From contig NZ_JANIAC010000001.1 of assembly GCF_024723255.1 (NCBI RefSeq), forward strand, positions 511,548 to 575,547: a DNA stretch of 64,000 bases, in the 5' to 3' direction. Position numbers and translations under genes: made by a program. The stretch is from Aestuariibaculum sp. M13 (GTDB lineage Bacteria; Bacteroidota; Bacteroidia; Flavobacteriales; Flavobacteriaceae). Shown in pieces: positions 4,093-35,720 of this stretch. The notes under the pieces were generated by a model. The model had not been told where the DNA came from, ran no database searches, and was given only the letters and a program-made list of their open reading frames with translations. The first letter of the stretch is position 1. Each line of letters starts with the position of its first letter.

Positions 4093-5907
4093 TTACAATA
4101 TGTTTGCTTTAATCTTTTTCCAAATGCGCACTAATAACACTCCTGATATTAGAGCGATAATAGTCATTACGAGCGCCAATGTTGTTTTTCCGTAAATCCA
4201 GTATCCTGTAGCGAACATGGCACTGTAGATTAAGGCACATCCTAACACCATAGCCATAATACCAGCAGGCACTGACCAAGGTTGTTTGTTATCTTCTAAA
4301 ACCACACCATCTGCTTCAGCTTCACTTAACACATGAGACCATCCTGGTCCTCCTGGTTGAATCTTTTTATAAAAACTTTGTAATACCGCCTTACTTTCTG
4401 GCTGAGTCATATACGTTGCCGCTAACCAAATAACGGTGGTTATCAACACTACAAAAGGATATTCTAAATAACTTGCAAACACTCCAGTTTCCTTAGCAAA
4501 GAAAAATGCTCCCGCAGGTGTTAATTTTAAAATGATTGAAATGATTCCTGAAGCAAACATCGCTGCTATTTCACTCCAAGCGTTTATACGCCACCAGAAC
4601 CAACGTAAAATAAAAATAAGTCCTGTACCTGCACCAAATACTAATAATACCTCGAATAGTTGCAATGCATTTTGAAGCAACAATGCTAACAATGCACTAA
4701 ACACCATTAATACAATTGTTGATATTCTACCTACGGCTACCAGACGCTTTTCTGAAGCTTCCGGGTTGATTTGTTCTTTATAAAAATCGAAAACAATATA
4801 TGATGACCCCCAGTTTAACTGCGTTGAAATGGTACTCATATATGCTGCAATTAATGATGCTAAAACCAATCCTAATAACCCACTAGGTAATTTGGTCAAC
4901 ATAGCTGAATAGGCTAAATCATGACCTAATTTATCATCTGCAATACTAGGAAACGCCTCTTGAATACTTGCTAAATCCGGGAACACCACTAACGATGCCA
5001 AGGCTACTAAAATCCATGGCCAAGGACGTAAAGCATAATGCATGATATTAAAAAAGAATGTTGCTCCAATAGCATGATTCTCATCTTTAGCTGCTAACAT
5101 ACGCTGTGCGATGTAACCACCACCACCTGGCTCTGCACCAGGATACCACGAGCTCCACCACTGTACTGCTAAAGGAATAATTAATAACGTGATTAAAGAT
5201 TCTGTATCACTAAAATCCGGTAAGATTGATAATTTATCTGCCACATGCTCATTAGTAATTAAAGCCGCAACACCACCTACTTCCGGCAGGTTCACTAAAT
5301 AATATGCAGCACCAATCGCACCACCCATCGCCACGAAGAACAATAAGAAATCGGTATAAATAACACCTTTAAAACCACCAAGTGCACTAAAAGTCACCGT
5401 AATGATGCCGGCACTAATTACCGTCTGCCAAGGCTCTAAACCTAACATAATTCCACCAATCTTGATGGCTGCCAAGGTTACTGCCGACATGGTAATGACA
5501 TTAAAAATCACCCCTAAATACACCGCTCTGAACTTTCTTAAAAAAGAGGCTGGTTTTCCACCGTAACGTAATTCATAAAACTCTAAATCGGTATTCACAT
5601 TAGATTTTCGCCACAGCTTTGCATACACAAACACCGTTAATAACCCGGTAAGCAAAAAGGCCCACCAAACCCAGTTTCCTGAAACACCATGAGTTCTTAC
5701 AATATCAGTTACTAAGTTAGGTGTATCGGTTGAAAAGGTAGTGGCTACCATAGACACCCCTAATAACCACCACGGCATACTTCGCCCTGATAAAAAGAAT
5801 TCTGATGAGTTTTTTCCTGACTTTTTTGACACCCAAATCCCGATACCCAAGGTTAACGAGAAGAAAATGATGATTAACGTGTAATCTAATGGACTTAATG
5901 ATACCAT
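4093..5907 (-). CDS. Sodium:solute symporter family transporter
   Basis: A 604-aa integral membrane protein with about 14 hydrophobic segments. It has the SSS N-terminus (LDYTLIIIFFSLTLGIGIWV) and the family stretch with FFLSGRSMPWWLLG and FSTDTPN near residues 38-65. Members co-transport sugars, amino sugars, sialic acid or vitamins with Na+ across the inner membrane. The operon (hexosamine kinase, deaminase) makes an amino sugar or N-acetylhexosamine the likely cargo. It is 31 bases before nagB and 47 bases (or slightly more) after the kinase. Substrate is inferred only from context. Confidence 0.85.
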   Translation of the reverse strand: MVSLSPLDYTLIIIFFSLTLGIGIWVSKKSGKNSSEFFLSGRSMPWWLLGVSMVATTFSTDTPNLVTDIVRTHGVSGNWVWWAFLLTGLLTVFVYAKLWRKSNVNTDLEFYELRYGGKPASFLRKFRAVYLGVIFNVITMSAVTLAAIKIGGIMLGLEPWQTVISAGIITVTFSALGGFKGVIYTDFLLFFVAMGGAIGAAYYLVNLPEVGGVAALITNEHVADKLSILPDFSDTESLITLLIIPLAVQWWSSWYPGAEPGGGGYIAQRMLAAKDENHAIGATFFFNIMHYALRPWPWILVALASLVVFPDLASIQEAFPSIADDKLGHDLAYSAMLTKLPSGLLGLVLASLIAAYMSTISTQLNWGSSYIVFDFYKEQINPEASEKRLVAVGRISTIVLMVFSALLALLLQNALQLFEVLLVFGAGTGLIFILRWFWWRINAWSEIAAMFASGIISIILKLTPAGAFFFAKETGVFASYLEYPFVVLITTVIWLAATYMTQPESKAVLQSFYKKIQPGGPGWSHVLSEAEADGVVLEDNKQPWSVPAGIMAMVLGCALIYSAMFATGYWIYGKTTLALVMTIIALISGVLLVRIWKKIKANIL

Positions 5908-5954
5908 ATACGTGTGTTATTAGTTAATATTTTCGTTTTGTTAGTATTTGTTCG

Positions 5955-7043
5955 TTATGTCAATTTCGTAATCTGCTTTACTTCTTCATACTGCTTTGAA
6001 TAACTTTCTAATAGTTTAAACTGATTTTTGGCCCGGTCTAAATTATGATGACTGTAAGCCGCTTTATAATAAATATCGTTGTTTAGGAAATCGGTTAAAA
6101 ACCTTAATCCCATAATAAATATAATGCTTTTAGCTCCTAATGGGAGATACTCCAATTCGGTTGACGTTAAAGATTCCCCTACCGTTTCTAAAAACCCTTT
6201 CACATAAGATTTATAATAGTCAATATTGAAATTCACCTGATCTAAATCTTGTTCATCTTCGGCTGCTGTATTACAAATCGTTCTGATTGCATCACCAAAA
6301 TCATAATGAATAATTCCAGGCATAACCGTATCTGTATCAATAACGCAAAGTCCTTTATTGTTTGTGTCAAACAAAGCGTTTGATATTTTTGTATCGTTAT
6401 GCGTCACTCTTGTTGGAACTGCTCCAGACTCTTTTAACGTTTGAAGAATATGCATTTCTTCTCTTGACGATTCAACCAGTTCTATGCAAGCTATTGCCTC
6501 CTCTTTTCGCTGTTGAGATGCTCCTTTTAAAGCCTCATCAAACTGTTTATAGCGAAACGACATATCATGAAAATTTGGAATCACTTCTATCAAATCATCC
6601 ACTTTAAAATCGCTGGTTTGATTTAAAAATTCTCCAAATAACTTTCCGCCTTCATACGCAATTTCATCATCTACAACTCGTTCGAAAGTGACACTATCAT
6701 CTATAAATTGTGTTAAATTCCAGTATCCCGTTGACTTATCTTCATAAAATGATTGACCTTCAACAGTAGAAATAAAAGACAAAACACGACGTTCCTGTTC
6801 TCCTTTCGGCAAATGTGACAACTTCATTTTTAAATGATTACTGACACTTACCTTATTATTAATTAAACCCGGTACATCAGGAAAAACACCATGATTAATA
6901 CGCTGTAGCACATAATTGGGTTTATCTTCAGTTTTTATTAAATAGGTATCATTAATATGTCCAGAAGCCAATTCGGAAAATGATTCGAACTGACTTTCAT
7001 GTTGAAATTGATCAAAAATATATTTTAATGTTTCCTGATTCAT
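5955..7043 (-). CDS. Phosphotransferase, N-acetylhexosamine 1-kinase-like
   Basis: An aminoglycoside-phosphotransferase-fold kinase of about 362 aa. The catalytic loop HNDTKISNALFD and the metal site DTDTVMPG...DFGDAIR closely resemble NahK of bifidobacteria, which phosphorylates GlcNAc/GalNAc at C1. I place the start at the second methionine (MNQETLKYIF): its ATG begins one base after the TAA of the upstream nucleotidyltransferase. An earlier ATG at 7070 would overlap that gene by 26 bases. Downstream sits a Na+ symporter. The pairing with a nucleotidyltransferase mirrors kinase plus uridylyltransferase in 1-phosphate salvage routes. Confidence 0.82.
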   Translation of the reverse strand: MNQETLKYIFDQFQHESQFESFSELASGHINDTYLIKTEDKPNYVLQRINHGVFPDVPGLINNKVSVSNHLKMKLSHLPKGEQERRVLSFISTVEGQSFYEDKSTGYWNLTQFIDDSVTFERVVDDEIAYEGGKLFGEFLNQTSDFKVDDLIEVIPNFHDMSFRYKQFDEALKGASQQRKEEAIACIELVESSREEMHILQTLKESGAVPTRVTHNDTKISNALFDTNNKGLCVIDTDTVMPGIIHYDFGDAIRTICNTAAEDEQDLDQVNFNIDYYKSYVKGFLETVGESLTSTELEYLPLGAKSIIFIMGLRFLTDFLNNDIYYKAAYSHHNLDRAKNQFKLLESYSKQYEEVKQITKLT

Positions 7044-7044
7044 A

Positions 7045-7962
7045 TTACCATAAATATTCAGGATAGACATTTGCTTCTTTCAACTCTTCTATCGCTTTTT
7101 GAACGATAGCCTTATCTTCCTGATAAGTAACACCAAACCATTTAGCGTCAGACTTTAACACCTCGACCGTTGCTTTACCGGACTTCAATATCTCATTAAC
7201 AATGGATGGCAAATAAAATTCCGCCTTTAAATTAGCTTTGTTCTCTTCTAAAAACTGCAAAAATAGCTCCTCTCCAAATTCAAAGCATTTAGGTGTAAAA
7301 CCCCAAAAGTTCATAGAAACTACGGTATCCGGTTTAATAGATACAAACTCACCATCATCATCCTTACGCATCAACTCTCCATTAACTTTTTCAATATGGG
7401 TTCGTTCCGTCACATCTAATAAAAACCCGTTTTCATCAACTTGACATTCTCCTCTTGACACAAAACCATGATCTGAAACGGTATTTTTCAACAAATAAGC
7501 CATAGTCTTGAAGTCATAAGATTCCTTATCCGTTTCCTTTAAAGCCTTCGCCATACTCTCAAAAGCCTCTCTACTGTAAAAATCATCAGCATTAATAATG
7601 GCAAAATTTTCCTTTACAGCATCTTTAGCCATTAGCAAAGCATGACCGGTTCCCCAAGGTTTTGTACGCTCCGAATTAACATAAGCTTCAGGTACACAAT
7701 CCAACTCCTGATAAACATAAGCTACCTCAGCCTTACCTTCTAATTTCTTATTAAAGATTTCCTTAAATTCTGCCTCAAAACTTTTTCTAATAATAAAAAC
7801 AAACTTCCCGAAACCAGCCTGCAAAGCATCGTAAATTGAAAAATCAATAATTGTATCTCCCTGCGGAGTAAACGAATCCATCTGCTTCAAGCCTCCATAT
7901 CGACTCCCCATTCCTGCCGCTAAAACTACTAACGTTGGTTTTTCCATATCTGTTTTAATCAT
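7045..7962 (-). CDS. Sugar-1-phosphate nucleotidyltransferase
   Basis: A 305-aa protein with the nucleotidyltransferase signature LAAGMGSRYGGLKQM (about 14-28) and IINADDFYSREAF, the metal-binding region of NTP-transferases. It probably forms a UDP- or other NDP-sugar from a hexosamine 1-phosphate. It is the first gene of the minus-strand operon, and the kinase ATG follows its stop after one base. A second in-frame ATG at 7947 (MEKPTLVVLAAG) is an equally good start. The 217-base gap to the divergent LacI-type gene carries two operator palindromes. Nucleotide and sugar preference are not visible. Confidence 0.8.
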   Translation of the reverse strand: MIKTDMEKPTLVVLAAGMGSRYGGLKQMDSFTPQGDTIIDFSIYDALQAGFGKFVFIIRKSFEAEFKEIFNKKLEGKAEVAYVYQELDCVPEAYVNSERTKPWGTGHALLMAKDAVKENFAIINADDFYSREAFESMAKALKETDKESYDFKTMAYLLKNTVSDHGFVSRGECQVDENGFLLDVTERTHIEKVNGELMRKDDDGEFVSIKPDTVVSMNFWGFTPKCFEFGEELFLQFLEENKANLKAEFYLPSIVNEILKSGKATVEVLKSDAKWFGVTYQEDKAIVQKAIEELKEANVYPEYLW

Positions 7963-8100
7963 TTAAATTTTCAAGACTTCAAACAAGTCGTCAAACAGTT
8001 AAAAATCAACACTTTTTAAATCCATCACAAGGCATTTTCAACTGTCAACTTTGCGAAAGTATGTATTAAGTTTTACAAAAAAAAGAAAAATCACAAAAAA

Positions 8101-8138
8101 ATGTGCTCGACAACATTTTAAAATGTGTTCGAGCACAT
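8101..8138. promoter_or_regulatory. Two tandem LacI-type operators
   Basis: Two 16-bp near-palindromes with central CG lie in the divergent gap: ATGTGCTCGACAACAT (8101-8116) and ATGTGTTCGAGCACAT (8123-8138). Their centres are 22 bp apart, about two helical turns, and the 40-bp whole is itself almost a perfect palindrome (8099-8140). This is the form expected for LacI-family dimers. They sit between the regulator and the amino-sugar operon, so they probably control both. Confidence 0.8.
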
Positions 8139-8141
8139 TTT

Positions 8142-8174
8142 TTGTAATTCAATACAACTTTTATATTATATTTG
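8142..8174 (+). promoter_or_regulatory. Promoter of the LacI-type regulator
   Basis: A -33 TTG (8142-8144) and a -7 TATATTTG (8167-8174) match the Bacteroidota consensus with a 22-nt spacer. The -33 begins 3 bases after the second operator. Transcription would start within a few bases of the ATG at 8180, so the mRNA is nearly leaderless. Confidence 0.6.
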
Positions 8175-8179
8175 TAGTA

Positions 8180-9223
8180 ATGAAAAAATATACCATCAAA
8201 GATATTGCTCAATTAGCAGGCGTATCAAAAGGAACTGTAGATCGCGTTATTCATAAACGAGGGAAAGTATCGGAAAAAGCTCTAGAAAAAGTAAATAAAA
8301 TACTTGCTGAAATAGACTATCAACCCAACCTAATGGCTAGAAGTCTAAAAAACAACAAGGACTATGTTATTTGCGCCCTATTGCCAAATCCCGATATTGA
8401 TCCGTATTGGAAACCTTGTAAAAAAGGTATAGACCAGGCTTACAATGAATATAAATCCCTTGGAATTACCATTGACACACATCTGTTCGATCCTACCGAT
8501 ACCGAATCTTTTCTGGAAGTCAATGCTAAGGTTTTAAAACTAAATCCTGACGCGGTAATTATAGCTCCTTTATTTTATAACGAAGCTAAAAAATCGATAT
8601 CTACATATAGTGAGGCCAATATTTTGGTTAGCATCATAAATAACCGAATAGGTTCTGATGACATTAACAATTTTGTGGGTCAGGACCTAGTTCAAAGTGG
8701 ACGTATTGCAGCACGCCTGATGGAAATGATTACTCCAAAAGACTCTGAAATTATTATTGCTCACCTTGATGAATTTTTTCATAACGCATCGTTTATGCAG
8801 CAAAAAGAGAAAGGATTTAGAGACTATTTCGAAAATTCCTTAACAAGCGACTACACTCTTACAACCTGTAATTCAATAGAATCTAATCACTATAAAACCT
8901 TATACGACGCCATAAATAACTCAAAAAATATTTCTGGTATTTTCGTTACAACTTCCAAAACTTATAAAGTTGCCAAAATGCTGGAAGACTTCCCTAATTT
9001 ATCCATCAAAATAATTGGTTACGATTTACTTGAAAAAAACCTTAACTACTTAAACAGTGGTAATATTGATTTTCTGATTCATCAAAATCCAAAACAACAA
9101 ATCTACCTTGGTTTAAGTCAGTTAGCAGAACATTTTCTGTTTGACAAACCAATTACAGAAGAATTACTGTTACCTATAGACATTATAAATTCTGAAAACT
9201 ACAACTCCTACTTAAATCAATAA
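8180..9223 (+). CDS. LacI-family transcriptional regulator
   Basis: A 347-aa regulator. The N-terminal HTH reads MKKYTIKDIAQLAGVSKGTV followed by a hinge helix (NLMARSLKNN, about 55-64). The rest is a periplasmic-binding-protein-like effector domain. I choose the ATG at 8180 because the canonical LacI N-terminus begins there. The frame is open 43 codons further upstream, but that would put the operators and promoter inside the gene. It is divergent from the hexosamine operon with two operators between, so autoregulation and control of that operon, probably relieved by an amino sugar or its phosphate, are likely (inference). Confidence 0.9.
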   Translation: MKKYTIKDIAQLAGVSKGTVDRVIHKRGKVSEKALEKVNKILAEIDYQPNLMARSLKNNKDYVICALLPNPDIDPYWKPCKKGIDQAYNEYKSLGITIDTHLFDPTDTESFLEVNAKVLKLNPDAVIIAPLFYNEAKKSISTYSEANILVSIINNRIGSDDINNFVGQDLVQSGRIAARLMEMITPKDSEIIIAHLDEFFHNASFMQQKEKGFRDYFENSLTSDYTLTTCNSIESNHYKTLYDAINNSKNISGIFVTTSKTYKVAKMLEDFPNLSIKIIGYDLLEKNLNYLNSGNIDFLIHQNPKQQIYLGLSQLAEHFLFDKPITEELLLPIDIINSENYNSYLNQ

Positions 9224-18073: not shown

Positions 18074-18858
18074 TGAATATATTAGATAAAATTACAGCCG
18101 ATAAACGAACCGAAGTCGCTTTAAGAAAATCTTTGATTCCGATTTCACAGTTAGAACAATCGGTGTTATTCGAAAGACCAACAGTGTCTTTAGCTGAAAA
18201 ATTAAGAACCAGCAACACTGGTATTATAGCTGAACATAAACGTCGTTCGCCTTCTAAATCGGTTATCAACCATAACCTCAATGTTAATGATGTTGCTAAA
18301 GGTTACGAAGATGCCGGTGTTTGTGGCATGTCTGTTTTAACTGACGGTAAGTATTTTGGAGGCTCGCTAGACGACTTACTACTGGCTCGCGCTTCCTGTA
18401 ATTTACCATTATTACGCAAAGAATTCATTATCGACGAATACCAGTTACTGGAAGCTAAAGCTTATGGTGCAGATGTGATTCTGCTTATCGCAGCCATCTT
18501 AACACGTGATGAAATCAAGCAGTTTTCAGAATTTGCTAAAAGCCTGAATTTAGACGTTTTATTAGAAGTACACAATGAAGAAGAATTAAACAAAAGCATC
18601 ATGCCTAGTTTAGATATGTTAGGTGTTAATAACCGAAATTTAAAAACTTTCGATGTTAGTTTAGACACCAGTAAATCGTTAAGTGCATTAATTCCTGATG
18701 ATTTCGTTAAAGTATCAGAAAGTGGCATCAGTAATATTGAAGCTATTAAATCTTTACAGCCATTTGGTTACCAAGGTTTCTTAATTGGTGAAAACTTTAT
18801 GAAAACCGATAATGCCGGTGACAGTGCTAAAACATTTATAGAACAATTAAATAAATAG
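18073..18858 (+). CDS. trpC: Indole-3-glycerol phosphate synthase
   Basis: 261 aa TIM barrel. IAEHKRRSPSKS carries the catalytic lysine, LLRKEFIIDEYQL the second key lysine, and VLLEVHNEEEL and LGVNNRNLKTF complete the active site. It closes the ring of CdRP to indole-glycerol phosphate. Start by overlap with trpD. The last two bases of its TAG stop are the first two bases of a 27-nt palindromic unit that fills the gap to trpF. Confidence 0.96.
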   Translation: MNILDKITADKRTEVALRKSLIPISQLEQSVLFERPTVSLAEKLRTSNTGIIAEHKRRSPSKSVINHNLNVNDVAKGYEDAGVCGMSVLTDGKYFGGSLDDLLLARASCNLPLLRKEFIIDEYQLLEAKAYGADVILLIAAILTRDEIKQFSEFAKSLNLDVLLEVHNEEELNKSIMPSLDMLGVNNRNLKTFDVSLDTSKSLSALIPDDFVKVSESGISNIEAIKSLQPFGYQGFLIGENFMKTDNAGDSAKTFIEQLNK

Positions 18859-18883
18859 AACCTGAAACAAGTTCAGGTTGACA
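18857..18883 (+). repeat. Solo right palindromic unit between trpC and trpF
   Basis: A 27-nt unit whose core AACCTGAA-ACAAG-TTCAGGTT (18859-18879) is a perfect 8-bp inverted repeat with a 5-nt loop and which ends TTGACA. It overlaps the trpC stop codon and lies 5 bases before the trpF ATG. It has no T-run, so it is not a terminator. No left partner is seen. Confidence 0.85.
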
Positions 18884-18888
18884 AAAAG

Positions 18889-19563
18889 ATGAAGTTAAAA
18901 GTTTGTGGTATGAAATATCAGGATAACATTCAGGCGGTGGCAGATTTGAAACCAGATTACCTAGGTTTTATCTTCTACGAGAAATCAGCAAGATGTTTCA
19001 ACACCACTATTCCAGATATTTCTAAAAGCATTAAAAAGACAGGTGTTTTTGTAAATGAAACTGTAGAGTTTGTACTTGAACAAATTCAGACTCATAACTT
19101 ACAGGCTGTCCAATTACATGGTGAAGAATCTACGGAATATTGCGAGCAGTTAAAAAACTGTCATGCTGAACTTGTTTCAGCATCTCTCGATAAGAACCCG
19201 AAACACCTTCAGGTTGACAAATCATTAGAAATCATTAAAGTCTTTTCTATAAAAGACGAATTCAATTTCGAGGTTTTAAAACCTTACGAAACGGTTTGTG
19301 ATTACTTCTTATTTGATACCAAAGGAAAACTTCCGGGAGGCAACGGTTATACTTTCGATTGGAATGTATTAAACGATTATCCATCAACCAAACCCTTCTT
19401 TTTAAGCGGTGGTATTGGTCTAGATGAAGCCGACAAACTGAATGCTTTTACACAAAGTCCTGCATCAAAATATTGTTATGCTATTGATGTAAACAGTAAA
19501 TTTGAAATAGAACCCGGATTAAAAGATATTGAACAACTAAAGCAATTTAAAACAAATCTGTAA
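18889..19563 (+). CDS. trpF: Phosphoribosylanthranilate isomerase with in-frame repeat insertion
   Basis: 224 aa, about 20 longer than usual for TrpF. The normal landmarks are present: LKVCGMKY (catalytic Cys), VQLHGEES, LFDTKGKLPGGNGYTFDW (catalytic Asp) and FFLSGGIG. Residues 91-110 (starting CHAELVSAS and ending KHLQVD) are not TrpF sequence. They are the translation of a pair of palindromic units at 19159-19219 that kept the frame. The insert falls after EYCEQLKN and before LEIIKVFSI, in a loop between a helix and the next barrel strand, so the enzyme may tolerate it. The final Leu codon and TAA stop lie in a further left unit. It isomerises PRA to CdRP. Confidence 0.93.
   Translation: MKLKVCGMKYQDNIQAVADLKPDYLGFIFYEKSARCFNTTIPDISKSIKKTGVFVNETVEFVLEQIQTHNLQAVQLHGEESTEYCEQLKNCHAELVSASLDKNPKHLQVDKSLEIIKVFSIKDEFNFEVLKPYETVCDYFLFDTKGKLPGGNGYTFDWNVLNDYPSTKPFFLSGGIGLDEADKLNAFTQSPASKYCYAIDVNSKFEIEPGLKDIEQLKQFKTNL
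19159..19219 (+). repeat. Palindromic unit pair inside trpF
   Basis: A left unit at 19159-19185 (starts TGTCATGCTGAAC, ends CAGCATCT) and a right unit at 19193-19219 (starts AGAACCCGAAAC, ends CAGGTTGACA) have a 7-nt spacer. The right unit matches the reverse complement of the left at about 20 of 27 positions. The left unit is identical to 34992-35018. Confidence 0.9.
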
Positions 19564-19638
19564 TTCCGCACCTGATACGGAATCTATTATAAACTAATAA
19601 CTAAAATAAAAAGATCCTGAAATAAATTCAGGATGACA
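19559..19638 (+). repeat. Palindromic unit pair between trpF and trpB
   Basis: A left unit (19559-19585, core ATTCCG...CGGAAT) contains the trpF stop codon. A right unit (19612-19638) has core ATCCTGAA-ATAAA-TTCAGGAT and ends ATGACA. The spacer is 26 nt. The trpB ATG follows the pair by 8 bases. Confidence 0.85.
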
Positions 19639-19646
19639 ATAAAAAA

Positions 19647-20828
19647 ATGAACTATAACGTCAACGAAAAAGGGTACTACGGCGAATTTGGAGGTGCATTT
19701 ATTCCAGAAATGCTTTACCCGAATGTAGAAGAATTACGCCAGAATTATTTAAAAGTGATGGCTGAGCCTTCGTTTCAGGAGGAATTCAACCAATTACTAA
19801 AAGACTATGTGGGGCGCCCATCGCCTTTATATTTCGCCAAGCGTCTTTCAGAAAAATACAACACTAAAATATACTTAAAACGTGAAGATCTGAATCATAC
19901 AGGTGCACACAAAATCAACAATACCATCGGGCAAATCCTAATGGCAAAACGCCTTGGTAAAACTCGTATTATTGCTGAAACCGGTGCTGGTCAACACGGT
20001 GTAGCCACTGCTACGGTTTGTGCCTTAATGGGACTGGAATGTATTGTGTATATGGGTGAAATTGACATTGCCAGACAAGCACCAAACGTAGCAAGAATGA
20101 AAATGCTGGGTGCCAGTGTGGTTCCTGCAAAATCAGGAAGTCGTACACTTAAAGACGCCACTAACGAAGCAATCCGTGACTGGATTAACAACCCGGTAAA
20201 CACCCATTATATTATCGGCTCAGCCATTGGCCCACATCCTTATCCGGATATGGTTACCCGTTTTCAAGCGGTAATTTCAGAAGAAATTAAATGGCAGTTA
20301 AAAGAACATGAAGGTCGCGAAAAACCAGACTACGTGGTTGCTTGTATTGGTGGCGGTAGTAATGCTGCCGGAACTTATTATCACTTTCTACATGAAGAAG
20401 ACGTTAACATTATCGCTGTTGAAGCTGCCGGACATGGGGTCGATTCAGGCGAAAGTGCTGCAACTTCAGTATTAGGTAAAGAAGGTGTTATCCATGGTTG
20501 TAAAACCTTATTAATGCAAACCAAAGACGGACAAATCACAGAACCTTATTCAATATCTGCTGGTTTAGACTATCCTGGTGTTGGCCCAATGCATGCACAT
20601 TTATGCAAAACCGGACGTGCGGAATTTATGGCCATCACCGATGATGATGCCATGAATGCCGGATTAGAACTTTGTAAATTAGAAGGTATTATCCCTGCTA
20701 TAGAAAGCTCTCATGCCTTAGCCATCTTTGAACAAAAACCCTTTAAACCAGACGACATTGTTGTGGTGAGTCTATCAGGGCGTGGTGATAAAGATTTACA
20801 GAACTACATCGATTATTTTGAGATTTAG
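19647..20828 (+). CDS. trpB: Tryptophan synthase beta chain
   Basis: 393 aa, normal length. The PLP lysine lies in [14 protein letters not shown], with [14 protein letters not shown], the phosphate loop GGGSNAAG and the C-terminal [10 protein letters not shown]. It condenses indole with serine. It is separated from trpA, its usual immediate neighbour, by a complete GIY-YIG element of about 350 bases, so the TrpA:TrpB coupling normally given by adjacency is broken here. Confidence 0.97.
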
Positions 20829-20830
20829 TT

Positions 20831-20857
20831 TTTTTATTTCCGCGTAGGCGGAAATCT
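20831..20857 (+). repeat. Left palindromic unit of the trpB-trpA GIY-YIG element
   Basis: The core ATTTCCGC-GTAG-GCGGAAAT (20836-20855) is a perfect 8-bp inverted repeat with a 4-nt loop, ending in CT like the other left units. The outer TGTC is degenerate (TTTTT). It starts 2 bases after the trpB stop and 12 bases before the GIY-YIG ATG. Confidence 0.8.
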
Positions 20858-20868
20858 ATTTAATATTT

Positions 20869-21153
20869 ATGGATGTTTATTACGTGTACATATTAACAAA
20901 TAAAAATCATACTGTTCTTTATGTGGGCCGTACAAAACAATTAAATATTAGACTAAAACAACATAGAAACAATAGTCAAAAAACATTCACAGGAAGATAC
21001 AATGTTCACAAACTGGTTTATTTTGAAACAACTAAATATGTTAATAATGCCATTAAACGTGAAAAACAAATAAAGAAATGGAATCGCCAATGGAAGATAA
21101 ATCTAATTAATGGATTAAATCCCGATTGGAAAGACCTTTCAGAGTATGTTTAA
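20869..21153 (+). CDS. Single-domain GIY-YIG nuclease inserted in the trp operon
   Basis: 94 aa, the complete length for the UPF0213/YhbQ-like group. The GIY-YIG core is VYIL (about 6-9) and LYVG (17-20), followed by the arginine in IRLKQH and the metal-binding glutamate in LVYFE; AIKREKQIKKWNRQWK is the basic C-terminal helix. It has no role in tryptophan synthesis. It sits between trpB and trpA, bracketed by a left unit 12 bases upstream and a right unit starting directly after its TAA. A second such gene at 35.2 kb has the same bracketing. Inference: it is the enzyme of a small mobile element. Confidence 0.9.
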   Translation: MDVYYVYILTNKNHTVLYVGRTKQLNIRLKQHRNNSQKTFTGRYNVHKLVYFETTKYVNNAIKREKQIKKWNRQWKINLINGLNPDWKDLSEYV

Positions 21154-21180
21154 AGGATTCCCTCCTTCGAGGGAATGATA
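21154..21180 (+). repeat. Right palindromic unit of the trpB-trpA GIY-YIG element
   Basis: The core ATTCCCTC-CTTC-GAGGGAAT (21157-21176) is a perfect 8-bp inverted repeat, ending ATGATA (ATGACA elsewhere). It begins at the base after the GIY-YIG stop codon and ends 14 bases before the trpA ATG. Confidence 0.82.
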
Positions 21181-21194
21181 AAACAAATTAATTT

Positions 21195-21959
21195 ATGAAC
21201 AGATTACAGCAAAAACTACAGGAAGATAAAAAGTTACTATCTATATATTTTACAGCCGGTTATCCGAGTTTAAACGATACCGTAAGTATTATTGAAGACT
21301 TAGAAAAAAGCGGTGTCGATTTAATTGAAATCGGATTACCATTTAGCGACCCCTTAGCCGATGGCCCTACCATTCAGGCGAGTTCTACTCAAGCGCTTAA
21401 AAATGGTATGACTACCGAAATTTTATTCAATCAGTTGAAAGATATTCGTAAAACGGTGAATATTCCATTAATAATTATGGGCTATTTCAATCCCATGTTA
21501 CAATATGGTGTAGAAGCCTTTTGTAAACAATGTCAGGCCATAGGTATCGATGGATTAATTATTCCGGATTTACCAGTGGATGTTTATCATGACGAATACA
21601 AGGCTATTTTCGACACGTACGGATTGGTTAATGTATTCCTAATTACACCACAAACCAGCGAAGAGCGCATTCGTTATATCGATTCTATTTCCAACGGATT
21701 TATCTATATGGTAAGTAGCGCCAGCGTTACCGGAAGTCAGTCAGGCTTTGGAGATGAGCAAACGGCATATTTCAAACGTATTTCCGATATGAACTTAAAG
21801 AATCCACAAATTGTTGGCTTCGGAATTAACAACAACGAAACCTTCAATCAGGCTACCACTTACGCAAAAGGCGCCATCATTGGAAGCGCATTTATAAAAC
21901 ATGTGTCTTCAGAAAAATTAGACACTATTCCAGATTTCGTAAGCGGCATTCTTCAATAA
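21195..21959 (+). CDS. trpA: Tryptophan synthase alpha chain
   Basis: 254 aa, normal length. The barrel motif LIEIGLPFSDPLADGPTIQ carries the catalytic glutamate and the second catalytic aspartate region. GLIIPDLPVD and GFIYMVSSASVTG follow. It cleaves indole-glycerol phosphate to indole for TrpB. Last gene of the operon. It is displaced from trpB by the GIY-YIG element and followed by a strong terminator. Whether it is still well expressed depends on read-through of that element, which has no T-run terminator. Confidence 0.96.
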   Translation: MNRLQQKLQEDKKLLSIYFTAGYPSLNDTVSIIEDLEKSGVDLIEIGLPFSDPLADGPTIQASSTQALKNGMTTEILFNQLKDIRKTVNIPLIIMGYFNPMLQYGVEAFCKQCQAIGIDGLIIPDLPVDVYHDEYKAIFDTYGLVNVFLITPQTSEERIRYIDSISNGFIYMVSSASVTGSQSGFGDEQTAYFKRISDMNLKNPQIVGFGINNNETFNQATTYAKGAIIGSAFIKHVSSEKLDTIPDFVSGILQ

Positions 21960-34991: not shown

Positions 34992-35114
34992 TGTCATGCT
35001 GAACTTGTTTCAGCATCTACAGAACCCAGCCCCCGAACCAAGCAAAATAACCGCATTAGTTAGCAAACACATAGTGCTTTATCTAATAGATTCCGAAACC
35101 AGTTCGGAATGACA
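34992..35114 (+). repeat. Palindromic unit pair with 69-nt spacer
   Basis: Left unit 34992-35018 (identical to the one inside trpF) and right unit 35088-35114 (core ATTCCGAA...TTCGGAAT, ending ATGACA). The spacer has no recognisable content. Confidence 0.88.
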
Positions 35115-35204: not shown

Positions 35205-35537
35205 ATGAAACGTACATATCACAACTACTGGGTTTATATCATAACCAACAAACCTCGAGGTACACTTTATATAGGTGTAACCGGTGGTATCGATGATAGA
35301 ATGGAACGACATGTTTTAGGAAAAGGTTCAGCATTTACTAAGAAATATAAACTAAAACGACTGGTTTATTTCGAGGAGTTTCAATTTATAAATGATGCTA
35401 TAAAACGAGAAAAGCAATTGAAGAATTGGCATCGACAATGGAAGATTAACTTAATAGAACAAAACAATCCGAATTGGGAAGATTTATGGGTACCCTTGGG
35501 CACTGAAGATGGAGATTCCGAAACAAGTTCGGAATGA
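35205..35537 (+). CDS. Single-domain GIY-YIG nuclease (second copy)
   Basis: 110 aa. GIY-YIG core WVYI and LYIG, then arginine in DDRMERH and glutamate in LVYFEEF; AIKREKQLKNWHRQWKINLI is nearly identical to the trp-operon copy. The last residues (about 103-110, GDSETSSE) and the TGA stop are encoded by the right palindromic unit, so the protein has a tail made of repeat sequence. It is bracketed by left unit 35125-35173 and right unit 35513-35539, inside a dense run of such units. Inference: it acts on the palindromes as part of a mobile element. Confidence 0.9.
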   Translation: MKRTYHNYWVYIITNKPRGTLYIGVTGGIDDRMERHVLGKGSAFTKKYKLKRLVYFEEFQFINDAIKREKQLKNWHRQWKINLIEQNNPNWEDLWVPLGTEDGDSETSSE

Positions 35538-35539
35538 CA
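35513..35539 (+). repeat. Right unit of the 35.2-kb GIY-YIG element
   Basis: Core ATTCCGAA-ACAAG-TTCGGAAT (35515-35535) ending ATGACA. The TGA stop of the GIY-YIG gene (35535-35537) lies within it. Confidence 0.88.
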
Positions 35540-35548
35540 AAATCTCCC

Positions 35549-35619
35549 TGTCATGCTGAACTTGATTCAGCATCTATACCCCCTTTGCAGCTAGACCCTG
35601 AATCAAGTTCAGGGTGACA
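35549..35619 (+). repeat. Palindromic unit pair with 17-nt spacer
   Basis: Left unit 35549-35575 (TGTCATGCTGAAC...CAGCATCT) and right unit 35593-35619 (core CCCTGAA-TCAAG-TTCAGGG, ending GTGACA). Confidence 0.9.
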
Positions 35620-35629
35620 CCACTACAAC

Positions 35630-35720
35630 TGTCATACTGAATTTATTTAGCTTCGCTGAATCTTTGATTTCAGCATCTCTACCTCTTGTGGCCAGACCCT
35701 GAATCAAGTTCAGGGTGACA
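35630..35720 (+). repeat. Palindromic unit pair with long left unit
   Basis: A left unit in 49-nt form (35630-35678, like 35125-35173), a 15-nt spacer and right unit 35694-35720, which is identical to 35593-35619. It is the last unit of the cluster. Confidence 0.9.

Follow-up and report, generated by a model that had tools for sequence, protein, structure and literature searches.

Hairpin repeats beside small GIY-YIG nuclease genes and their match to enzyme sub-groups

Small GIY-YIG nuclease genes related to one in the trp operon of Aestuariibaculum sp. M13 are frequently flanked by inverted hairpin units, and sequence comparison indicates that enzyme sub-lineage and unit class are tied. Different versions of the enzyme have different hairpin sequences beside their genes, so each enzyme probably recognizes its own short repeats, and it may help to spread them.

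A nuclease gene between two hairpins in the trp operon

In the window, by which we mean the whole 64,000-nt stretch of DNA analysed, the list of open reading frames (ORFs) gives trpD, trpC, trpF, trpB, a 94-aa ORF, and trpA as a co-directional run, the gene names being presumptive assignments from sequence and general knowledge. The 94-aa ORF (gene A) and its two hairpins form cassette A (Table 1). A preliminary description had a GIY-YIG gene bracketed by palindromic units at trpB-trpA, and this stands: both hairpins have an 8-bp stem without mismatch and a 4-nt loop, one lying 13 nt 5' of the ATG and the other 3 nt 3' of the stop. The 27-nt units drawn there (20831-20857 and 21154-21180) do contain these hairpins, but the tails added to them are degenerate rather than TGTC/GACA, a tag that is absent from the cassette A unit tails of this genome. 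Tagged tails of the form gtcAT...ATgac are retained in two cassette A relatives (L226 and L228).

Folded as single-stranded DNA, the left and right hairpins reach -7.9 and -6.5 kcal/mol, values equaled by 0/200 and 3/200 shuffles, respectively. A degenerate form of the hairpin occurs at 9 places in the 4.16-Mb genome, two of them beside gene A, versus 1 for the reversed control. Among 34 distinct strings from 40 genes (L211, L234, and L254 were left out, their left unit having been wrongly picked), 97.4% of stem cells are paired. Double changes occupy 40 cells against a shuffled mean of 12.8, with 0/500 shuffles as high, and the number of stem pairs with double changes is matched by 59/500 shuffles. 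The alignment thus indicates that cassette A stems are kept paired through double changes.

The product of gene A matches PF01541 (GIY-YIG; E = 4.4e-16, 59.4 bits against a cut-off of 22.6); no NCBIfam model places it above its own cut-off, and no PDB sequence matches it at an E value of 0.01. Two Tyr, an Arg, and a Glu are the defining active-site residues of GIY-YIG nucleases, and Y7, Y18, R28, and E65 are invariant in the 37 and the 48 proteins of two alignments. The predicted structure (pLDDT 95) is a single domain whose best structural match is UPF0213 protein BH0048 (PDB 1zg2; Foldseek E = 9.4e-4, TM 0.59), yet at 26% identity; Slx1 and UvrC domains follow at E >0.03. By domain, active-site residues, and predicted fold, we therefore class gene A as a UPF0213-type GIY-YIG nuclease. 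Its dN/dS of ≤0.08 in six close comparisons indicates purifying selection, and pN/pS is 0.09 to 0.16 against ten other relatives, at which distance synonymous sites are near saturation. In several relatives, the gene is broken and the units are retained.

Table 1. Positions of the hairpin units and of the genes next to them, counted from the first nucleotide of the window
Feature	Position	Strand	Basis
Solo CTGAA-class unit, between trpC and trpF	18858-18882	-	
CTGAA-class unit within trpF ORF	19160-19184	+	
CTGAA-class unit, between trpF and trpB	19613-19637	-	
trpB, 5' neighbor	19647-20828	+	ORF; trpB-trpA order kept in relatives
Cassette A left hairpin, ATTTCCGC-gtag-GCGGAAAT	20836-20855	.	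Perfect 8-bp stem; covariation across relatives
Gene A, putative 94-aa GIY-YIG nuclease, motif KWNR	20869-21153	+	Pfam; invariant Y7, Y18, R28, E65; model pLDDT 95
Cassette A right hairpin, ATTCCCTC-cttc-GAGGGAAT	21157-21176	.	Perfect 8-bp stem; covariation
trpA, 3' neighbor	21195-21959	+	ORF; relatives' junctions
Gene-less tag-out pair, 71-nt spacer, CTGAA left/CCGAA right	34993-35113	.	
Left unit of gene B cassette, CTGAA stem, long loop	35126-35172	+	
Gene B, second GIY-YIG nuclease, 110 aa, motif NWHR	35205-35537	+	
Right unit of gene B cassette, CCGAA stem	35514-35538	-	
Gene-less tag-out pair, 19-nt spacer, single long hairpin fold, z -6.9	35550-35618	.	
Additional CTGAA-class unit of gene B cluster	35695-35719	-	

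A second cassette and dispersed units in the window

Gene B sits within a pair of units whose tags face outward (a tag-out pair), and its TGA stop falls in the right one of the two. It has a gene-less tag-out pair on each side, one with a 71-nt and the other with a 19-nt spacer. Altogether the window has 15 tagged hairpins, whereas 50 Markov resamples have 4.0 on average and never more than 11. Left/right pairs had been described here with 7 to 69 nt between them; tag-out pairs are indeed present, two with gaps of 71 and 19 nt, but the other gaps between neighbors are 341 nt (containing gene B), 428 nt (spanning part of trpF), and 11327 nt (not meaningful). These dispersed pairs were also taken for empty or shortened forms of the gene A structure, a reading that finds no support: their CTGAA/CCGAA stems are of the class of gene B's sub-group and differ from the units of gene A. 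The source genome has 12 exact CTGAA units.

In trpF, the unit at 19160-19184 lies in the reading frame and is translated as HAELVSAS, so that the repeat is now part of a biosynthetic protein. CTGAA-class units occur at trpC-trpF and trpF-trpB too (18858-19637), and with units at several junctions of one trp operon, those junctions look like favored sites. The source genome also has a third small GIY-YIG frame (G000:C1:400332-400550, loci L001 and L077), with a TAG within the domain match and GTCGAA-type flanks.

Inverted units beside related genes

UPF0213-type genes had been expected to carry flanking palindromic units more often than chance, and inverted units are indeed far commoner beside them than beside control ORFs. 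In a first set of 43 genes (42 of 66 matched places plus one further gene), the upstream flank matches the reverse complement of the downstream flank with a score of at least 14 in 14/43 genes, 3/502 control ORFs, and 0/1197 random blocks; gene A scores only 8 because its two units differ. Under a strict tagged-unit rule, by which gene A has no tagged unit, tag-out pairs flank 13/43 genes versus 4/682 control ORFs in this set and 53/147 versus 1/696 in a larger one. The larger set also has units with tags facing inward at 18/147 genes versus 1/696 control ORFs, and a tagged unit in either flank at 100/147 versus 46/696, leaving 47/147 genes with no tagged unit within 200 nt. On the strength of these controls, with tag-out pairs at 1/696 ORFs, generic terminators were set aside.

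Unit orientation depends on the enzyme sub-group (see below). The nearest units face tags out and tags in at 33 and 5 of 137 KWxR genes, respectively, 69 of the 137 being without a tagged unit on either side; these 69 include cassette A genes lacking tags. For NWHx, the figures are 23 and 3 of 38, and for xGxR 4 and 11 of 48, the inward arrangement being the commoner in this last group.

Correspondence of enzyme sub-group and hairpin class

Sub-groups were defined by residues 70-73, located where the model turns from helix 58-70 into helix 73-83; the motif groups were first noticed on 148 genes that are themselves part of the 225 compared here. KWxR genes (133) have 105 yCCnC units, 1 TTGC, 8 other, and 19 none; xGxR genes (30) have 26 TTGC and 4 none; and NWHx genes (22) have 21 CTGAA and 1 that is yCCnC by the rule (L053), actually a CCGAA unit. 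The smaller groups are NWNR (8 genes; 7 yCCnC, 1 other) and GWxR (14 genes; 2 yCCnC, 4 CTGAA, 2 TTCTGA-long, 2 other, 4 none), and 18 genes are ungrouped. For the three main groups, sub-group and hairpin class correspond in 152/154 classifiable genes, a further 31 genes without a classifiable unit standing outside this count. A later set of 56 genes from phylum-wide searches gives 27/30, with 13 main-group genes outside the count: KWxR (7) has 5 yCCnC, 1 other, and 1 none; xGxR (18) 9 TTGC and 9 none; NWHx (18) 13 CTGAA, 3 yCCnC by the rule (actually CCGAA), and 2 none; the remaining 13 are GWxR (3) or ungrouped (10). The untagged-hairpin rule used in both class counts could only enlarge the yCCnC class.

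Many KWxR genes belong to cassette A, and 40 genes are at least 68% identical to gene A. After reduction at 70% identity (63 genes), 39/40 KWxR genes have yCCnC, 10/10 xGxR TTGC, 6/6 NWHx CTGAA, and 2/2 NWNR yCCnC, while GWxR is spread 1, 3, and 1 across three classes. Among gene pairs with less than 45% identity, class agrees in 135/160 from the same sub-group versus 83/559 from different sub-groups, and 0/500 permutations reach 135; the nearest gene from another main group has the same class in just 2/154 cases. When the motif columns are left out of the tree, there are 3, 2, and 3 supported independent pairs for the three groups, with class concordant on average in 2.8, 2.0, and 2.4 and opposite in 0.0; these pairs are too few for significance to be within reach, and the sub-groups are largely clades. 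For the same reason, a residue-level recognition code was set aside as a proven result. We infer that residues 70-73 do the hairpin reading.

Named database records outside the trp set add 44 genes, with 34 yCCnC, 3 other, and 7 none (L255 was dropped at gene finding). As EKQIKKWN was the scan pattern, all 44 are KWNR, and it is the unit that is tested here, not the motif. Records with yCCnC units are titled Legionella wadsworthii, Planctomycetes, Paceibacterota, Chloroflexi, and Devosia; two other Legionellaceae records gave no unit.

At the genome level, exact CTGAA units are found in 15/60 relatives, the control giving 0 in each genome. They are present in 7/7 genomes with a typed intact NWHx gene versus 8/53 others (Fisher 1.7e-5, uncorrected for kinship and with part of the genes typed). 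Units without a typed NWHx gene (G031, 18; G034, 11; G038, 10; and others) imply that the repeats persist after the enzyme is lost or have no need of it, or else that the enzyme was missed. Units of the GCAATGAC type occur in 20/60 relatives, with one control match in one genome, and those of the ATTCCTGC type in 10/60, with a control of 0. One genome (G009) has 17 exact ATTCCTGC-class units, and two of its three GIY-YIG matches contain several stops; here the repeats may outlive their enzyme. The profile matches in 183/249 genomes family-wide, and two single-protein queries match in 90 and 91 of 198 genomes phylum-wide. The highest number among the matches listed is 19 profile matches in a 3.0-Mb genome (G175).

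Variation at the same site

Comparison of trpB-trpA junctions, proposed in the preliminary description, reveals an empty site and shows that gene and units vary together. The 44 TrpA places, spread over 43 of 60 genomes, yielded 30 junctions. At 4/30, an intact nuclease is accompanied by units: three of these have cassette A (the source genome G000, G016, and G022), and the fourth (G003) has another nuclease, which shares 45% identity with gene A and has CTGAA units. G017 has cassette A with the gene broken and both units present, and G002 has units and no gene. At 12/30 junctions, including G001 (8 nt), gaps are 2 to 31 nt, and at 9/30 they are 45 to 202 nt and nuclease-free, that of G008 containing unit-like sequence; 3/30 are uncallable by the rule. 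Since G000 to G003 are of one genus, four states of this junction exist within a single genus: cassette A, another nuclease with other hairpins, gene-less units, and an empty 8-nt gap.

A similar survey of bioD-bioA covered 30 loci out of 31 places. The gap in G008 spans 375 nt and contains an NWHK nuclease plus CTGAA-class units, bioD and bioA overlap by 4 nt in four relatives, and in G022 they are 85 nt apart, with a single imperfect right-hand unit between them. In L063 (10068-10104), a unit 5' of bioA adds in-frame MLKQVQHDE to the BioA frame; such unit-derived peptides could be marks of the repeats in protein databases.

Arrays, gene-less pairs, and the position of cassette A

One array (L142) consists of 16 tandem pairs, of which 14 (146 to 155 nt) are gene-less and 2 (465 nt) have a complete nuclease gene as the spacer. 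These pairs (reverse strand, 5161-8658) are built of a longer, different unit type, and the unit rule missed the ends of the array, so its genes were scored as having none. Elsewhere, a tandem cassette duplication starts at a unit (L141), four nuclease frames lie within repeats (L138), and left and right units alternate in a dense array around SGNR-type nuclease genes (L139, 2352-6500), 2/3 genes there lying between pairs and not within one. We counted 62 gene-less pairs at up to 1.5 kb from a gene (0.131 per kb) and 2 at more than 3 kb (0.005 per kb), with bases near adjoining genes counted repeatedly and gene-less pairs once. Such a pair lies within 1.5 kb of 26/159 genes, and 63/77 spacers measure 15 to 43 nt. 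One pair each of the window and of G005 folds as a single long hairpin (z -6.9 and -10.6).

Outside cassette A, only 34/107 gene pairs with at least 80% identity have a common neighbor, some of these pairs being intra-genome, versus 780/780 gene pairs within cassette A. Among 80 named relatives kept of 266, the locus contains both trpA and trpB in all 35 with at least 70% identity and neither of them in the remaining 45. By both measures cassette A gives no sign of moving, and its constant place at trpB-trpA marks it as old and sedentary.

How the repeats might spread

The explanation that we favor, with somewhat better than even confidence, is that gene A encodes a UPF0213-type nuclease targeting its flanking hairpin unit, that nicked unit-bounded stretches spread via the host, that gene-less pairs are shortened forms, and that cassette A is now sedentary. 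The nuclease would recognize the hairpin when single-stranded, at a replication fork or in DNA entering by transformation, and would nick it close to the tag. Host replication and recombination would then copy or exchange the released stretch, whether or not it includes the gene, into further intergenic sites; no GIY-YIG enzyme is known to join DNA ends, and spread would thus need host functions. The gene with two units would be the complete cassette and gene-less pairs its shortened forms, with cassette A a selected resident of trpB-trpA. Both the cutting and the mobility of the cassette are what we infer. The mobile element of the preliminary description came through both comparisons that had been named as able to refute it. 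It gains from the inverted units at related genes, the joint variation of gene and units at trpB-trpA, and the gene-full and gene-less pairs of L142, but finds no support in cassette A itself, which is at trpB-trpA in 35/35 close relatives.

The conservation of cassette A at one site under purifying selection would also suit a nuclease that mobilizes nothing, one that, like the Ssn enzymes discussed below, cuts repeats in incoming single-stranded DNA and tunes natural transformation, with units and cassettes relocating by ordinary recombination of taken-up DNA. The within-genus swap of nuclease plus units fits exchange by transformation, and the Ssn/NTS pairing would offer a precedent. By itself, however, this account leaves unexplained both the gene-less pairs at many sites and the different sites of related genes (only 34/107 of the non-A pairs above have a common neighbor); we regard it as possible though rather doubtful. 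The restriction to trpB-trpA in the 35/35 close named relatives, together with stems preserved by double changes and the low dN/dS (≤0.08), might instead mean that cassette A is domesticated, its hairpins and gene serving the trp operon in mRNA processing or differential trpB/trpA expression, whatever their origin. Against this, the same site is empty in G001 and holds another nuclease in G003 of the same genus, and several relatives have lost the gene to breakage and kept the units, which makes such a role improbable in our estimation. Least credible, to the point of being nearly dismissible, is that a small gene merely happens to lie among intergenic hairpins of a generic kind, be they terminators or insertion hot spots: CTGAA-class units do lie in further trp operon gaps (trpC-trpF and trpF-trpB), yet the control ORFs of the same loci (tag-out pairs at 1/696) and the way unit class goes with enzyme sub-group both contradict it.

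If spread by nicking is extended beyond gene A, UPF0213-type GIY-YIG nucleases might be the missing dedicated enzymes of CGTC/TGTC-tagged repetitive extragenic palindromes (REPs) in many phyla, with the gene and two units as a mobile cassette, gene-less pairs as non-autonomous forms, and the turn that follows the catalytic helix as the reading head that chooses the hairpin. We advance this wider proposal tentatively, with confidence falling a little short of even. A nuclease family with sub-groups matching repeat classes would be a direct candidate enzyme for CGTC-tagged REPs, which had none dedicated to them according to the available text of PMC3733652 (2013). It makes the origin and spread of these REPs testable and points to the few residues by which a very small nuclease might choose a hairpin.

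Relation to known systems

GIY-YIG homing endonucleases reside in an intron, an intein, or a split host gene and have a separate DNA-binding domain. Gene A lies between complete trpB and trpA ORFs and has 94 aa in one domain, and a homing endonuclease was set aside on these grounds. Very probably the closest known system is Ssn/NTS. The Ssn enzymes of Neisseria meningitidis are reportedly small stand-alone GIY-YIG nucleases, specific for a site in single-stranded DNA and paired with abundant short NTS repeats, which are said to lie within dRS3-like repeats of the form ATTCCC-N8-GGGAAT. A small stand-alone GIY-YIG nuclease and abundant short repeats are thus common to both, and here too the cognate repeat is found near the gene and around the genome. 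Ssn is very likely of the same enzyme family as the nucleases described here, and the pairing of such enzymes with repeats, which had been thought undescribed, has probably been described already in that work. Features that may be additional here are gene-full and gene-less pairs in one array, the same-site cassette swap, and the match of sub-group and unit over several hairpin classes.

Our literature search found no paper tying GIY-YIG nucleases to REPs, and nuclease and transposase had no match in the available part of PMC12306157; most subscription papers lay beyond the search, and we therefore make no claim of priority. What may be new is the anatomy of cassettes and arrays, the same-site swap, the correspondence between sub-group and hairpin class, and the connection with the question of CGTC-tagged REPs. 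For these REPs, the text available to us of PMC3733652 gives an 8- to 9-bp stem, a 4- to 5-nt loop, and A-T first pairs, reports no associated transposase genes, and asks what mobilizes them. The yCCnC class (stem 8, loop 4) and the CTGAA class (stem 8, loop 5) resemble them in these dimensions and in their A-T first pairs, with TGTC as a frequent tag variant and frequent dimers as further likenesses (PMC3733652). Both gene A units agree with that description in stem, loop, and A-T pairs and depart from it in having no unpaired CGTC/TGTC tag, which is present in L226, L228, and the units of gene B. The TTGC class, with a short stem and long loop, is unlike the families in the portion of PMC3733652 available. 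CGTC-tagged REPs are numerous in a genome; the counts for the source genome are 9 places of the gene A class and 12 exact CTGAA units.

REPIN/RAYT systems, as far as the accessible accounts describe them, are alike in having two inverted palindromic units that fold together across a short spacer, a single enzyme gene in the genome with units at its flanks, and gene-less pairs elsewhere. They differ in that the enzyme is a tyrosine transposase rather than a GIY-YIG nuclease and the tag is GTAG rather than GTC-type. From CGTC-tagged REPs, for which the accessible text of PMC3733652 found no transposase gene, the arrangement here is set apart by the nuclease gene that stands between the units.
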